Assembly (NCBI GenBank): GCA_024644085.1
Contig: JAHELS010000002.1
Span: 1-64,000 of the forward strand
Direction: 5' to 3'
DNA length: 64,000 nt
Source of the DNA: Rhodopirellula sp.
Lineage (GTDB): Bacteria; Planctomycetota; Planctomycetia; Pirellulales; Pirellulaceae
The position numbers and the translations under genes are program-made. The notes under the pieces were generated by a model that worked only from the letters and a program-made list of their open reading frames with translations, made no database searches and had not been told where the DNA came from. Below, one piece after another: positions 14,293 to 60,371 of this stretch. Numbering within the stretch: the first letter of the stretch is position 1; each line of letters starts with the position of its first letter.

Positions 14293-14366
14293 GGTAACCC
14301 GACGCGTAAGCGAGGGACACATCGGAAACGCCTTCCCTCGATCCCTCGCTTACGCATCGGGTTACC
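14293..14366. repeat. Family A palindromic element in the cytochrome/DUF1552 spacer
   Basis: GGTAACCCGACGCGTAAGCGAGGGA ... TCCCTCGCTTACGCATCGGGTTACC. Confidence 0.93.
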
Positions 14367-22367: not shown

Positions 22368-22442
22368 GGTAACCCGAAGAGTGAGCGAGGGACCGAGAAC
22401 AGAATGAACCGGGAGCATCCCTCGCTCACGCTTCGGGTTACC
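22368..22442. repeat. Family A palindromic element in the PSD1/DUF1501 spacer
   Basis: GGTAACCCGAAGAGTGAGCGAGGGA ... TCCCTCGCTCACGCTTCGGGTTACC. Confidence 0.93.
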
Positions 22443-30935: not shown

Positions 30936-32221
30936 AACCTCGCACACTCACTCGTCGTCGTTTTCTTCGCGGAGCCGGAGTCGCGCTCGCACTGCCTTTG
31001 CTGGAGAGTGCGCGGCCCGCGTTCGCCAGGGACACCGAGTCGCCCACCCCGCGGCGGATGCTGTTGATCTCGAACAACCTGGGCGTCCTGCCGAAACAGT
31101 TCTTTCCGGAAACACCCGGACGTGACTACGAACTTTCACCCTACCTGCGGGACCTGGCCGAGTTCCGGAATGACTTCACGGTGATCAGCGGCCTGTCACA
31201 TCCGGATGTGGACGGTGGACACAGCACGGAGAACTGTTTTCTTACGGCGGCTCGCGGACCGACCAAGAGCGGCTTTCGCAACACGATCTCGCTCGATCAA
31301 TTCGCCGCTCTGCGATTGGGGCCGGTGACGCGGTTTCCTGCGTTCAATCTGGGCGTGAACATCGACAAGGCGAACCGTAGTCTCTCCTGGACGCGCGACG
31401 GCGTGCTCTTGCCCGCTGAAGACAGTGCTTCGGCTCTGTTCCGTATAATGTTCGTTCAGGGCGATCCGTCAGCGGTTAAGCGGCAGTTGCACAAGCTCGA
31501 TGAGCGGGCCAGCATCCTTGACACGCTGCTGGACGACACGCGTCAGGTCAGGCGAGCACTCGGTCGCGATGATCAATCGCGTCTCGACCAGTACCTCACT
31601 TCCGTGCGCGAGATCGAGCAGCGTCTGGATGTGGCGCGTCAATGGGAATTGCGGCCGAAGCCGACCACCGATCAACAACCGCCCCGCGACATTCGGGACC
31701 AGAAGCAGTTCTTCGAGAAGTTCGACCTGATGTTGTCGATGGCTCGCCTCGCGTTCGAATCCGACTCAACACGCATCATCACACTGATGGTCGATGCCTT
31801 CGCGACTCCTCCCTTCAAACTGCACCCCGATCAGAACACCACCGACGGCTACCACAACCTGAGCCACCACGGTCAATCCGAGTCAAAAGTGCAGCAACTG
31901 ATTGATGCCGACCATCAGCAGCTGTCGCTGCTGAACAAACTGTTCTCACAGCTTGCCGAGGTTCGTGAAGGCGAAGATCGTCTGCTGGACCGCACGATGA
32001 TCCTGTTCGGCAGCAACATGGGGGACGCCAACACCCACGACAACACGAACCTGCCCATCCTGCTGGCCGGCGGCGGCCTCAAGCACGGTCAGCACTTGGC
32101 CTTCCGCCGCGATCACAACCAGCCGCTCTGCAACCTCTATGTGACCATGCTCCAACACCTCGGCATCGACGCAGACACTTTCGGCAGCAGCGCCGGAACT
32201 TTGAACGAGATTGCCTCATGA
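30926..32221 (+). CDS. DUF1552 domain protein, twin-arginine leader (TRRRFLRGAGVALALPLLES)
   Basis: ISGLSHPDVDGGHSTENCFLTAARG; LSHHGQSESKVQQLIDADH; close to the other DUF1552 ORFs. Confidence 0.92.
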   Translation: MPMKPRTLTRRRFLRGAGVALALPLLESARPAFARDTESPTPRRMLLISNNLGVLPKQFFPETPGRDYELSPYLRDLAEFRNDFTVISGLSHPDVDGGHSTENCFLTAARGPTKSGFRNTISLDQFAALRLGPVTRFPAFNLGVNIDKANRSLSWTRDGVLLPAEDSASALFRIMFVQGDPSAVKRQLHKLDERASILDTLLDDTRQVRRALGRDDQSRLDQYLTSVREIEQRLDVARQWELRPKPTTDQQPPRDIRDQKQFFEKFDLMLSMARLAFESDSTRIITLMVDAFATPPFKLHPDQNTTDGYHNLSHHGQSESKVQQLIDADHQQLSLLNKLFSQLAEVREGEDRLLDRTMILFGSNMGDANTHDNTNLPILLAGGGLKHGQHLAFRRDHNQPLCNLYVTMLQHLGIDADTFGSSAGTLNEIAS

Positions 32222-32336
32222 GACACATGAAGCCCCACACAAAAGAAGTGCCCGGGTGATGAATGGAAATGGCATTTCGACGTGCCCGTTTTCGATGTTT
32301 TCATTTCGCCTATTTCCCATCTTCGCGGCTGTCCTC

Positions 32337-35300
32337 ATGAAACCTACTCTCAAACTCATCCACCCTGCCGCTCGCAGACTCACGCAATACGCGATTGGCA
32401 CACTGATTGTGCTATTGTCGCTGGCCAGCATAGCGGCAGCCGAAGATTGGCCCACCTGGCGACATGACGCCGGCCGTACGAATATCTCATCCGAGAAGAT
32501 TCCCGCTCCGCTGCGTCTGCAGTGGAAGCGAAAACTTCCGCCGGTGACACCCGCTTTCCGCAAGTCCCGGCTTCAGTTTGACCAGGGTTACGAGCCCATT
32601 GTTCTGGGCGATACCATGTTTGTGGCGGTACCGCATGTCGATGCGGTTGTCGCCTATGCTGTCGAGACCGGCAAAGAGAAGTGGCGGTTCTACACAGCCG
32701 GTCCCGTGCGTCTGGCACCGGTTGCGTGGCGCGACAGGCTCTTCTTCGGATCGGACGACGGACATCTGTACTGTTTGAATGCGACCGACGGTGAGCTGCA
32801 ATGGAAGTTTCGTGCCGTCCCTTCAGCAAGGAAAATCCTGGGCAATGGCCGGTTGATTTCCGTCTGGCCAGTCCGCGGGGGACCGGTGTTGGCCGACGAG
32901 ACCGTCTACTTCGCTGCCGGAGTCTGGCCGTTGGAAGGCGTCTTTGTCTACGCCCTCGACGCCCGGTCGGGCAAGGTCGAATGGGTCAACGATCGGTGCG
33001 GAACGTTGTATGGCAAGCAACCGCACGTGGGTGCCGAAGCGTTGGGAGGACTCTCCCCGCAAGGATACTTGTTGGTTAATGGCGATAAGCTGCTCGTCCC
33101 CTGTGGTGCGGCGCGACCGGCCACGTTCGATCGCCACAGCGGTAAACTACTCGACTTCACACTCCCGTCCGAAGGAACCGTTCCTGGCGGTTGGTTCATG
33201 CGGTTGGACCCGGAACTTGCCCGCGATATTCGACGCGGCAAGGTTGAGTTCGACAGTGTCGTCAATCGCGATCTGCATGAAGGTGGACTGCGCACGGGCA
33301 AAGGAGTCGCCGGTGCGCGGACACAGGTTACGCTTGGCGGCGCTCGGTTGAAATACGCGGAAGGAGCGAAGGGAGTAGACGGCGATATTCACAGTGTCGT
33401 CGCCGCCAACGGCCGACTGTTCGTCACGACCCGCGACGGAATGATTTATTGCTTCGGCGATACCGAAGTTTCACCGACCTTTCACCCGGCACAACCTGCT
33501 CACAACAGTCCGTTGAAAAACGGTGTTCGTGGTAACCCGACGCGTGAGCGAGGGACGAGAACCAGCGAAAACGGTGGATTCAAATCCCTCGCTGACGCGT
33601 CGGGTTTTCAAAGGCCTCCTAAGCGGGACGCCGACAAGGTGCTGGCGTCAACCGTCGCCCACCTGCGCACGCTAACCCGCGTTCGCGACGGCTACGCGCT
33701 CGTGCTCGGCACGCGCGATGGCCGGTTGGCGGACCAATTGGCTGCCGAGACAAATCTCAACGTCATTGCGTTAGCCCCCGTTGAATCCGACGCCGACACA
33801 TTACGGCGACGTATCCTTGACCCCTCCGCGCCAGCGGGACGACTGTCGATCGTGGCGGGCGAGCTTGAGAAAGTCGCGTTTCCGCAGTATCTGGCAGATC
33901 TGATCGTGGCAGAAGATTGGAGCGCGACCCGGCTCAACACAGGCGCTGACTACCTGCTGACATTGTATGAACGACTCAAGCCGTACGGGGGCGTCGCCTG
34001 TCTCTCCGTAGAATCGACGCGCGACGAGGAAATTCGCGAGTGGCTCCGCGCGGCCGGGCATAGCGAAGCCCGGGTTGAACGCCACGGCGACCTCCTGCTC
34101 ATCCGCCGGGCGGGCGCGTTGCCCGGCGCTGTCGATTACACAAACGACTGGAGCTCGCCCGACGCCCGCGTCCGGGCTCCTTTGGGGATCTTGTGGTTCG
34201 ACGATTCCCTGGCGCACTTCAAGCGCGCCCCGCAACCGACGATCGTGGGCGGCGTCATGATTTCGCAAGACAAGGATTGGCAGGGCAATGTCGATAAGAT
34301 GGGTCCCGTCAACCATCTCCATCGAGACGGGACCGGGCGGTTCCGCTTGCTCAATGCATCCTTCATGGATGTCTATACCGGCCGCGTCCTGTCGCGTGAC
34401 GAAACCGAGTCGCGGTTAGACCAAGTACCCAAAACGCCGCGCGCCGACTTTCGCCCGCCGTATCAATTTCGTCCGCCGTATGTCGAAAAGCATTTTCAGG
34501 ACCTGGAGTCCCGCGGCGAGAAGCCGAAGTCCTATCCGTTCCTGAGGCAGGCTGACAAAGGCCAAATGACGAATCCGCTGACCGGTGTTGTCGAGCCGCG
34601 ATGCTACGTCAAGAGTTACGGTTGCGACGGCGGTGTGGACTACGGTCACTTGATTACGATGCGGTCGGCGACGCCCGCTTTCTACGACAAACGTATTGAA
34701 AGCGGCACGATTAATATTGCCGGCCCACGCTCCGGTTGCACGAATAGCGTCATCCCGGCGGGCGGTGTCTTGAACATGCCGTATTTCTACGAGGGCTGCA
34801 CTTGCAGCTACCCGTTGCCCACCGGCGCCGCGCTGATCAGCATGCCGCAGACCTTCGAACAATGGACTGCCTGGGGCCAGACTGACCGGCGCCAGGGCAC
34901 CGCCAAACCAATCGTGCGCATCGGCGTCAACCTGGGAGCGCCCGGCGATCGGATGACCCACGGCGGAACTCTGTTTCTCGACTACCCCAGCGTCGGCGGA
35001 CCTTCGCCCGAGATAAAACTTCAGACGCAACCGGAGACCCCCGACTACTTTTATCACCACTCCCTGTTTATCCAGGCGGGGAAAGGCTGGCCTTGGGTCT
35101 GTGCCTCCGGCGTACAAGACATCAAATCATTGCGTTTGACAGAACTGAAATCCGGGACGTTTACCGTGCGGCTCTACTTTGTCGAACCAAAACACACTGC
35201 GGCGGGCGCCCGCGTGTTCGATGTCGCACTTCAGGGAAAACCTGTGCTGTCGAATTTCGATATCTTCGTCGCGGCCCAAGGCAAGATGAAGTGCCTGGTC

Positions 35301-35486
35301 AAAGAATTCACCGGTGTCCAACTCGATGGCGACTGCAACCTAACCTTCACCACGCACCAAGGCCAGAGCCTGCTCAGCGGGATCGAACTCGTATCGACGG
35401 GTCTGCCGCTAGATCCGTTGCCGGAAAATGGGTCGACTGCGGCGATCGTCGCAGCGTCGTGGTACGAAAGGCACCCAACTCGATGA
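32337..35486 (+). CDS. PQQ-like beta-propeller protein with methyltransferase-like segment and malectin-like C-terminus
   Basis: Signal peptide from ATG 32337; EDWPTWRHDAGRTN, VVAYAVETGKEKWRFYTAGPVRLAPVAWRDRLFFGSDDGHLYCLNATDGELQWKF; YALVLGTRDGRLADQLA; FTVRLYFVEPKHTAAGARVFDVALQGK. Confidence 0.85.
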   Translation: MKPTLKLIHPAARRLTQYAIGTLIVLLSLASIAAAEDWPTWRHDAGRTNISSEKIPAPLRLQWKRKLPPVTPAFRKSRLQFDQGYEPIVLGDTMFVAVPHVDAVVAYAVETGKEKWRFYTAGPVRLAPVAWRDRLFFGSDDGHLYCLNATDGELQWKFRAVPSARKILGNGRLISVWPVRGGPVLADETVYFAAGVWPLEGVFVYALDARSGKVEWVNDRCGTLYGKQPHVGAEALGGLSPQGYLLVNGDKLLVPCGAARPATFDRHSGKLLDFTLPSEGTVPGGWFMRLDPELARDIRRGKVEFDSVVNRDLHEGGLRTGKGVAGARTQVTLGGARLKYAEGAKGVDGDIHSVVAANGRLFVTTRDGMIYCFGDTEVSPTFHPAQPAHNSPLKNGVRGNPTRERGTRTSENGGFKSLADASGFQRPPKRDADKVLASTVAHLRTLTRVRDGYALVLGTRDGRLADQLAAETNLNVIALAPVESDADTLRRRILDPSAPAGRLSIVAGELEKVAFPQYLADLIVAEDWSATRLNTGADYLLTLYERLKPYGGVACLSVESTRDEEIREWLRAAGHSEARVERHGDLLLIRRAGALPGAVDYTNDWSSPDARVRAPLGILWFDDSLAHFKRAPQPTIVGGVMISQDKDWQGNVDKMGPVNHLHRDGTGRFRLLNASFMDVYTGRVLSRDETESRLDQVPKTPRADFRPPYQFRPPYVEKHFQDLESRGEKPKSYPFLRQADKGQMTNPLTGVVEPRCYVKSYGCDGGVDYGHLITMRSATPAFYDKRIESGTINIAGPRSGCTNSVIPAGGVLNMPYFYEGCTCSYPLPTGAALISMPQTFEQWTAWGQTDRRQGTAKPIVRIGVNLGAPGDRMTHGGTLFLDYPSVGGPSPEIKLQTQPETPDYFYHHSLFIQAGKGWPWVCASGVQDIKSLRLTELKSGTFTVRLYFVEPKHTAAGARVFDVALQGKPVLSNFDIFVAAQGKMKCLVKEFTGVQLDGDCNLTFTTHQGQSLLSGIELVSTGLPLDPLPENGSTAAIVAASWYERHPTR
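33531..33608. repeat. Family A palindromic element in frame (peptide [27 protein letters not shown])
   Basis: GGTAACCCGACGCGTGAGCGAGGGA ... TCCCTCGCTGACGCGTCGGGTTTTC; 78 bp, i.e. 26 codons. Confidence 0.93.
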
Positions 35487-46542: not shown

Positions 46543-47673
46543 ATGAAACATACACGGATTTCCTGTAGGGGAATGCGGATCATGAAGACGATTGTTGTCC
46601 CTTTTCTTCTACTTCTCTCCGCCTGCGCAATGGCTGCGGAAAAGCCGGCGAATTGTGTTAAGCAGGAATCCCAACAGGATTCTGGATTCTTTACTTTGAT
46701 CGTTCTGCCGGATACGCAAGGCTACGCTGATGTCCGGCATAAGGAGACACAGAAGCACTGGCCGAGTATTGGTGATCAGCGTTCCTGCTTCTTTAAACAG
46801 ACCGAGTGGATTAAGGAGAACAAGCAGAAGAGGAACATCGTCATGGCGTTCCATGTGGGAGACATTACCCAAACACAACACGACGAAGAATGGAAGATCG
46901 CCGATACCGCTTTCAAGACGATTGATAACCATGTCCCCTACATCTTGTGCTCGGGGAATCATGACATGGGTTACTCGTCAAAACATCGAGAGACCAGCCA
47001 TTCGCGCATAAGCCGTTTTGGTTCCTATTTCCCTCCGTCACGTTTTACGAATAACCCTTTGTATGACCCTCATTTCGGCAAGAAAAAAAGCCTGCACTTT
47101 TATGAAGAAGGAAAGATCGAAAACTACTACCTGTTTTTAAGAGCTGGCGGGATGAAGTTTCTGATTCTCACGCTGGAATTCAAACCTCGGGACCAGACTC
47201 TTGCCTGGGCGAATAAGGTTGTTGCCGCGCATCCCGATTGTCGGACCATCGTTGTGACACACAGCTATCTCACAAGCAAAAAGGGGCAGCTGTCGGGTGC
47301 TGACCACTATGGGGTCAAGGGGAACTCCGGAAAGTCAATTTGGGAGAAGTTCGTCAGTCAACACAAGAACATCTTCCTGGTCCTGTCAGGGCATGCCCTG
47401 GAGAATCTGTTGACTAGTCAGGGCAAACATGGAAATACGGTACACCAGGTTCAGGCGGACTATTGGTATTGGGATATACCCAAGATCAAGGCCGGAAGCG
47501 GTTTCCTGCGCATCATGACGTTCCGTCCTGACAAGAACTCGATTGAAGTTCAGACCTATTCGCCCGTGCTCGATGAATTTCTCGTACGCCCCAAAAGCAA
47601 CTTCTCGCTGGACTATGCCATGTCGGGTAAAGTCGAACAGCCAGCCGATGCAAGTGGCCGAGGGGGAGATTAG
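46543..47673 (+). CDS. Calcineurin-like metallophosphoesterase, lipoprotein-like signal
   Basis: LPDTQGYADV, AFHVGDITQ, CSGNHDMGYSS, VVTHSYL, LSGHALENL. Confidence 0.87.
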   Translation: MKHTRISCRGMRIMKTIVVPFLLLLSACAMAAEKPANCVKQESQQDSGFFTLIVLPDTQGYADVRHKETQKHWPSIGDQRSCFFKQTEWIKENKQKRNIVMAFHVGDITQTQHDEEWKIADTAFKTIDNHVPYILCSGNHDMGYSSKHRETSHSRISRFGSYFPPSRFTNNPLYDPHFGKKKSLHFYEEGKIENYYLFLRAGGMKFLILTLEFKPRDQTLAWANKVVAAHPDCRTIVVTHSYLTSKKGQLSGADHYGVKGNSGKSIWEKFVSQHKNIFLVLSGHALENLLTSQGKHGNTVHQVQADYWYWDIPKIKAGSGFLRIMTFRPDKNSIEVQTYSPVLDEFLVRPKSNFSLDYAMSGKVEQPADASGRGGD

Positions 47674-47881
47674 CGGCGACCGAATTCCACTACGGCAAAT
47701 CTGGCTTCACCGGAGATACTCAAGACACACACGAGCGAATCCTATGAAATACTCTGCCCTTCTTCTGCTGTGTCCAACAAAGCCACCGGCATCACCGCCG
47801 ACGTCCCCAGCGAAGCCGCATTGACTCCTCACCTGTGGGGAACCGTCCAATGGAAAACGTCTAATATTACAGTAGAGTAGA

Positions 47882-48113
47882 GGTGTGTCAGGTCTTACTT
47901 TTCGGGCAACGGCAGTGAGCCGTGACGCGTGACAGGATTTTGCACGGATCGGCGCAACCCGCTGCCATTAACAAGGTAACCCGACGCGTTAGCGAGGGAC
48001 CTATCCCTTGCTCACGCTGCGGGTTACCAACATCCATGCAAAATCCTGATTAGCGGCCGGGCCCGGTGCCTTACGGCCCGCGGCTCACACCGAAAAATAT
48101 GACCTGACACACC
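47882..48113. mobile_element. Nested multi-arm palindromic element with GGTGTGTCAGGTC terminal inverted repeats and an internal family A element
   Basis: Outer arms 47882-47905/48090-48113 (22/24), middle arms 47933-47949/48032-48048 (16/17), inner family A 47975-48028. Confidence 0.85.
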
Positions 48114-48130
48114 AGTAGGTTACGCCTGAC

Positions 48131-49273
48131 ATGAGACTAACCCTGACACTGTCCCTGTTCGCACTCCTGCCGCAGCTTGCCGTCGCGGGAGACATCACAC
48201 GCATCTGGCTCACCCATAAGACGAACGATCCCGGCAGGATCGTGGTCAACTGGATGACTGACGAGCCGGGCAACTCGATCGTCCGCTTTGGATTGACGAA
48301 GGAATACGAACAGGAGGTCCGGGACGACGAGAACACGACGCTGCACCACGTCGAGATTCCGGTCAAGCATCGAGACGCCGTTTACCACTACTCAGTCCGC
48401 ACCGGCGACCACCGTTCCGCCGACGCCACATTCAAGACGTACCCAACCGATGCGCTGCGCGTGGCCGTGGTTGCTGACTGGCAGGGCAAGCCGGATTTGT
48501 CCGCCATCGTGAAGGACGACGTGCATCTGCTACTAACCGCCGGCGACAATATCGCCCGGCTTTGGGACAAATGTGGTCAGGGCAACAAGGACTGCGTGAA
48601 ACCGTATTCGGAACTGATCGACGCCTATCCGCAGTTATTTCGGTCGACACCGTTCATGCCCGCGCTGGGCAATCATGACCGGGAGATTCGGCCTCGGGGA
48701 GACAGGCCGCCGGATGATCCAGTGTACGACGTGGAAGCGACGGCGTTTCGGCGGTTCTTTGAGCTGCCGGGCGACGAGTGGAAGTGGCACTTCGAGGTTC
48801 CCGAGTTCGATCTGCGGTTCGTAGCCCTCGATTTCAACCACATCTCCGACTTCGGCACGACCTGGCAAACCTGCCACGCCTTCGATGAGAAGTCTGAGCA
48901 GTTCAAGTGGTACAAGAAGCTGATGGTCCAGCCGCCCGGCTTCGTGGTCACGCTCTACAACGAGCGGAACGCCAGCGTTCGCAACCAGGCTCAGAAGCAG
49001 TGGCACGACCTGTTCCGCAAGGGGACCTGCTGCATCACGGGGTTCGGTTATTTTGCCGAGCGAGCCGATGTGGACGGTTTTCCGTACTACAACACGGCAT
49101 TGAGCGGGAAGGGAACCCGGTATCCCGATCCGCACTCCCGGTTCCTCGCGGGTGAAGACAGTTACATCCTGCTGACGTTGAAACGTGGTGGGCCGATGAC
49201 TGTCGAAATCAAGAGCCTGAAAGATGCGGTCCTGGACCGGCGGGAATTCGAGCGACCCGCAGGACCGAAGTGA
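48131..49273 (+). CDS. Calcineurin-like metallophosphoesterase (purple-acid-phosphatase-like)
   Basis: [39 protein letters not shown]-terminal fibronectin-like domain [25 protein letters not shown]. Confidence 0.86.
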
Positions 49274-60284: not shown

Positions 60285-60371
60285 GGTAACCCGACGCGTA
60301 AGCGAGGGACAATCCTCGTCAAACACCCGCGTTCAGAGCGTCGGAATCCCTCGCTTACGCTTCGGGTTACC
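60285..60371. repeat. Family A palindromic element in the cytochrome/DUF1552 spacer
   Basis: GGTAACCCGACGCGTAAGCGAGGGA ... TCCCTCGCTTACGCTTCGGGTTACC. Confidence 0.94.

Follow-up and report, generated by a model that had tools for sequence, protein, structure and literature searches.

A 232-bp intergenic palindrome at positions 47882-48113 is probably a stack of REP-type palindromes that belong to three different RAYT (IS200-like, HUH/Y1) transposases and came together by successive insertion. Its layers are nested around one another in the order, from the outside inward, T (the outer arms), B (a repeat split in two), M (the middle arms) and A (the inner palindrome) (Table 1). A and B are each found at many other places, where they flank different Y1 transposase genes, and T resembles repeats that flank a third group of such genes.

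A four-layer palindrome between two phosphoesterase genes

The window, that is, the whole stretch of 64,000 nucleotides that was analyzed, makes up the opening 64 kb of a contig of 96 kb (C187 of the planctomycete-like genome G000), and its proteins include PSCyt1/PSCyt2/PSD1 and DUF1501 proteins. The element lies between two plus-strand genes that both encode calcineurin-like phosphoesterases (46543-47673 and 48131-49273), and it ends 17 nt before the ATG of the downstream gene at 48131. Complementarity is 92% over 24 nt between the T arms and 84% over 25 nt between the A arms (47975-47999 and 48004-48028), and the M arms differ at one position in 17. The DNA fold of a 244-nt strand was predicted to be a single long nested hairpin (z = -11.6), the RNA fold of the same strand gave z = -11.1, and in both cases none of 200 dinucleotide shuffles was as stable. 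A preliminary description of this DNA had recognized a palindrome of three layers; the nesting, the positions of the arms and a fold far beyond that of shuffles all held, but the fourth layer, B, had been overlooked. The same description had reported no ORF inside the element. None of at least 60 aa is contained in it, but a minus-strand ORF (48085-48366) enters its right end from outside, the only ORF of at least 60 aa to do so.

Table 1. Layers of the nested palindrome, in order along the window.
Feature	Position	Strand	Basis
T left arm GGTGTGTCAGGTCTTACTTTTCGG	47882-47905	+	arm complementarity; resembles GTGTCAGG-type repeats beside third-group Y1 genes
Remnant of T loop, 9 nt	47906-47914	+	directly after T left arm
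B left piece GTGAGCCGTGACGCGT	47915-47930	+	matches intact B in G034, G003, G021 and own contig C449
M left arm CAGGATTTTGCACGGAT	47933-47949	+	pairs with M right arm; no further copy found
25-nt one-sided spacer, M to A	47950-47974	+	
A inner palindrome GGTAACCCGACGCGTTAGCGAGGGA....TCCCTTGCTCACGCTGCGGGTTACC	47975-48028	+	well supported as REP-like repeat of the A-type RAYT group; 7 window copies
M right arm ATCCATGCAAAATCCTG	48032-48048	+	pairs with M left arm
B right piece TAGCGGCCGGGCCCGGTGCCTTACGGCCCGCGGCTCAC (TAGCGGCCGGG...CCGCGGCTCAC)	48051-48088	+	matches intact B copies
T right arm CCGAAAAATATGACCTGACACACC	48090-48113	+	pairs with T left arm

The complete stack had no second copy in its own genome or in 60 relatives, which gives no support to a movement of the 232 bp as a whole, and T-B-A nesting was not found outside the window in about 1.2 Mb of DNA from the own genome, G034, G003 and G032. 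The motif AGTAG does occur just outside both ends, as first described (47876-47880 and 48114-48118). Its value as a target duplication is weakened because an additional AGTAG lies at 47871-47875, and the left copy is one base off the element. No empty site was found either; the only orthologue of the downstream gene in the genus (G018) has no such hairpin or element upstream and is not syntenic there. The GTAG one base outside the left T arm may be chance. A target duplication is not expected from HUH/Y1 enzymes.

Layers A and B are repeats that flank two groups of RAYT genes

Family A is represented in the window by seven copies, giving 14 arm matches against 0.07 expected. In a Y1 search of relatives, A palindromes were located on both sides of Y1_Tnp genes (PF01797) in G006 and G009, and a protein search with the 154-aa A-type transposase of G006 (contig C25) added flanked Y1_Tnp genes in G032 and G003. 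Diverged versions of A flank transposases in other families and orders, and most of the remoter transposases are without A. The A-type genes, like the B-type genes described below, score above the cut-off of the Y1_Tnp profile. There is thus good support that A is a REP-like repeat of one RAYT group. An A-flanked RAYT gene is absent from the own assembly (94.6% complete). The nearest A-type RAYT relative in this genome (locus L194, contig C365) is flanked by a different repeat, CCCGCGGCTAGCGCCGTCGGCTCAGG, and is cut by an assembly gap.

Nearly all A copies of the own genome were observed on 4 of its 468 contigs (C187, C188, C207 and C279; loci L216-L220), and the last 32 kb of C187 contain none; this concentration reflects either local clustering or a mixed bin. 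Within the window, three copies (14293-14366, 22368-22442 and 60285-60371) begin about 13-33 nt past a stop codon, each in a short intergenic gap that separates genes of the same orientation. Another (33531-33609) lies in frame within a plus-strand ORF (32211-35486) for a predicted PQQ-propeller/malectin protein, at residues of about 441-467, and leaves the frame open.

Layer B came to light when the whole element was searched against relatives: positions 48061-48089 were matched many times in G034, at up to 100% over 27 nt. The family is asymmetric, with the consensus (C/G)TGAGCCG(C/T)GACGCGTNAGCGGCCGGG ... CCCGGTGCCTTACGGCCCGCGGCTCA, and 50 distinct uninterrupted copies were collected from the fetched DNA. 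In the window it reads GTGAGCCG...CGGCTCAC, its halves parted by the M-A block. Intact copies run on continuously through the point where the window halves abut M-A. The halves thus belong side by side in a single repeat, and B has been interrupted by an insertion; the junction can be placed to within 1-3 bases, and the predicted fold shows it base-paired and not in a loop. Arrays of B palindromes with a period of about 94-123 bp flank Y1 genes in G034, G003 and G021, and that B is a REP-like repeat of a second RAYT group has good support as well. The loci L222 (G034, contig C20), L239 and L249 (G003) include tandem B units with a period of about 94 bp beside a RAYT gene, and tandem A-containing units with a period of about 150-154 bp.

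Layer T resembles repeats of a third RAYT group

The evidence on T comes from likeness to repeats elsewhere. Searched for separately, A was found alone at other places, but the outer and middle arms were without other copies. The T arms are unique within the own genome; among 241 genomes of the family, a search for the outer arm with at most 3 mismatches returned 10 scattered matches in other genomes, none convincing, and the reversed control gave about 6. A scan with 13-mers of this arm proved too loose to rise clearly above its control.

Inverted repeats of the GTGTCAGG type lie on either side of a third group of Y1 genes, with products of about 230 aa, in G003 and in G012/G001; in G007 the flanking sequence is GGGTCAGG. 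The transposase of this group matches NCBIfam NF047646 with an E value of 5.6e-15, a match that falls short of the curated 80-bit cut-off. The alignment between the G003 repeat, GTGTCAGGACTCTT-TTTTCGG, and the outer left arm, GTGTCAGG-TCTTACTTTTCGG, was better than those of all 20,000 shuffles (about 60 loci having been inspected). In a scan of 84,980 genomes, the hairpin TGTGTCAGGTC-N15..45-GACCTGACACA was found only in the FCB group, Zixibacteria, LCP-89, Calditrichaeota and further bacterial MAGs, and in one LCP-89 record palindromes of this kind bracket an ORF with homology to the third transposase group. On these sequence comparisons, T is probably a REP-like repeat of the third RAYT group, less securely so than A and B are of theirs. 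Three of the loci with the TGTGTCAGGTC hairpin (L152-L179) have an ORF homologous to this group, and in L169 it lies directly between such palindromes.

With the inserts taken out, T makes a clean hairpin of 58 nt whose loop measures 10 nt. B sits within this loop, separated from the left arm by 9 nt and from the right arm by 1 nt, a position compatible with insertion at the loop foot.

A units combine a constant inner hairpin with different outer stems

Like the T arms, the M arms occur only once in the own genome; as a gapped pair they were absent from the 241 genomes, and M was not found beside a Y1/HUH transposase gene. Within the M stem A is off-center, with 25 nt between it and one arm and 3 nt between it and the other, and comparable arrangements were observed in relatives. 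Enclosing stems scored above 95% of the null at 11 of 16 A sites in G032, 11 of 26 in G003 and 3 of 4 in G034, and at 1 of 10 in the own genome, which is the window element. The null was a cross-genome one, a within-set null being confounded by related copies, and since copies that belong to the same unit depend on one another, the counts overstate the number of events.

The enclosing stems are unrelated to one another: X (TAGGCACTGTTTATCAATT) and Y (TTTTGAAGTTGCG) in G032, Y also in G034, and C (GGCCTGTTGATT) in G003. Their spacers on one side and the other are 22/0 for X (24/2 once), 21-25/2-8 for Y and 29-31/0-2 for C, so that with the 25/3 of M the overall geometry is 21-31 nt on one side and 0-8 nt on the other. 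Not all sites conform: at some in G003 the outer stem is another one and is more symmetric (about 42/45). Inspection by eye suggests that the spacers on the longer side of M, X, Y and C share a motif of about GSCAWT located 4-7 nt from A, which may be chance.

As a pair, the X stem was found only with A inside; G032 has about 15 such places, and a sister genome has several. X-A is therefore a unit and not a repeated target, as the pair encloses A at unrelated sites. The A-type RAYT gene of G032 adjoins both X-A and Y-A units. Because A shows a like geometry in three unrelated stems of relatives, M and A in the window are probably a single two-storey unit and not two independent insertions. The earlier view of nested non-autonomous mobile elements is borne out for A, for B and, less surely, for T, which are separate families with independent occurrence and different Y1 transposases; it probably does not extend to M as an element apart from A.

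Proposed order of insertion and alternative origins

We infer that the layers have moved. A GTGTCAGG-type palindrome, T, would first have stood between the two phosphoesterase genes; a B-type palindrome would then have entered the T loop next to the 3' arm, and an A-type unit, consisting of stem M, the 25-nt one-sided spacer and hairpin A, would have entered the left half of B. Since HUH/Y1 enzymes have single-stranded DNA hairpins as their substrates (PMC6006769), each layer was probably moved by its own RAYT. Moved by its cognate RAYT, each palindrome would travel in single-stranded form, probably as a hairpin extruded from the DNA, and the loop or stem foot of another hairpin may serve as the single-stranded target. 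A strict targeting of loops alone does not account for M-A, since the predicted fold pairs the bases at its junction with B. As a rough estimate, which ignores intergenic bias and the picking of a striking case, the expectation that about a dozen A units would land by chance in one or two B hairpins (about 55 bp) in 6.9 Mb is of the order of 1e-4.

A more cautious account would have only B and A (with M) mobile, T being an ordinary host hairpin, such as a stabilizer of the mRNA 3' end, used as a landing site. The want of a close T copy in the own genome or the 241 family genomes suits this account, as does the clean hairpin that T forms without its inserts, but the likeness of T to repeats that flank a RAYT group does not, no terminator-like site was called at the element, and the G018 orthologue is without such a hairpin; we consider it unlikely. 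Far less probable is an origin of all 232 bp as one palindrome in a single event, such as template switching or inversion, that later decayed into apparent layers. One center is indeed common to all layers and the whole unit is known once. This origin is largely refuted by the separate families, A and B each being found alone at many places and the B pieces not being mirror copies of each other but the distinct arms of a family known to be asymmetric. We give least credence of all to a functional structured RNA or a cis-regulator of the downstream phosphoesterase gene, for which the very stable fold and the short distance to the ATG could be cited: an Rfam search of the window returned no family, the G018 orthologue lacks the element, and parts of the element are present at many unrelated loci. 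Integron attC sites were dropped as candidates, the arms appearing too long and nearly perfect and the neighboring genes not cassette-like. A stack of successively inserted REP-type palindromes remains the reading that we favor.

Comparison with known REP systems

REP/REPIN sequences and their RAYT (TnpA-REP) genes, the REPtrons, are short dispersed palindromes of which each family flanks its own Y1/HUH transposase gene, with several families per genome (PMC3733652, PMC6006769, PMC3116915). REPs in Planctomycetes are on record (Di Nocera et al., PMC3733652), and different REP types with their own transposases within one genome are already known (PMC6006769). A and B agree with this pattern as dispersed multi-copy palindromes beside their own Y1 genes, and T and M are single-copy. 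Unlike the REP super-families tagged with GTAG or CGTC, which have an unpaired GT[AG]G or CGTC at the hairpin foot, neither A, which starts with GGTAACCC, nor B, which starts with (G/C)TGAGCCG, has such a foot.

REP dimers inside longer palindromes have been described in A. variabilis (GTAG-15), T. roseum (GTAG-23) and H. neapolitanus (CGTC-1) (PMC3733652, section 7). There, as in X-A, a REP hairpin lies inside a palindrome that is mostly not found alone; however, those dimers have one outer palindrome per species, whereas here one inner family occurs in four unrelated stems, and one site has further REP families outside. TIRtrons are another comparison, in which RAYT-like genes (TIRYTs) are flanked by long inverted repeats with the TIR motif GGGGWSAS (PMC3733652, section 16). 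The T-type repeats of G003 and G012/G001 likewise flank a Y1 gene in inverted orientation, but the GGGGWSAS motif was not seen. Classical MITEs, with a DDE transposase, terminal inverted repeats and a target duplication, resemble the element in that it is gene-less, intergenic and built of inverted repeats; they differ from it in that its target duplication is unproven and the transposases beside related repeats are of the HUH/Y1 type.

Among the features that set the element apart from known REPs are its three stacked families and an inner hairpin whose outer stem can be exchanged while the one-sided distance stays fixed. REP dimers within palindromes have published precedents; in the open-licence articles searched, we found neither a three-family stack nor a single inner hairpin enclosed, at a constant distance on one side, by four unrelated stems.

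Cleavage of REP hairpins by their transposases is known from in vitro work; how targets are chosen and what unit moves are uncertain. We tentatively raise the possibility that the A-type RAYT recognizes a two-storey hairpin in which the inner hairpin is conserved and the outer stem, kept 21-31 nt away on one side, can be exchanged and is replaced over evolution. Such enzymes might prefer to insert into or beside extruded hairpins, so that REP stacks would grow layer by layer. The three-family stack provides a readable order of insertion, and the recurring plan of an outer stem, a 25-nt one-sided spacer and an inner hairpin suggests the identity of the moving unit.
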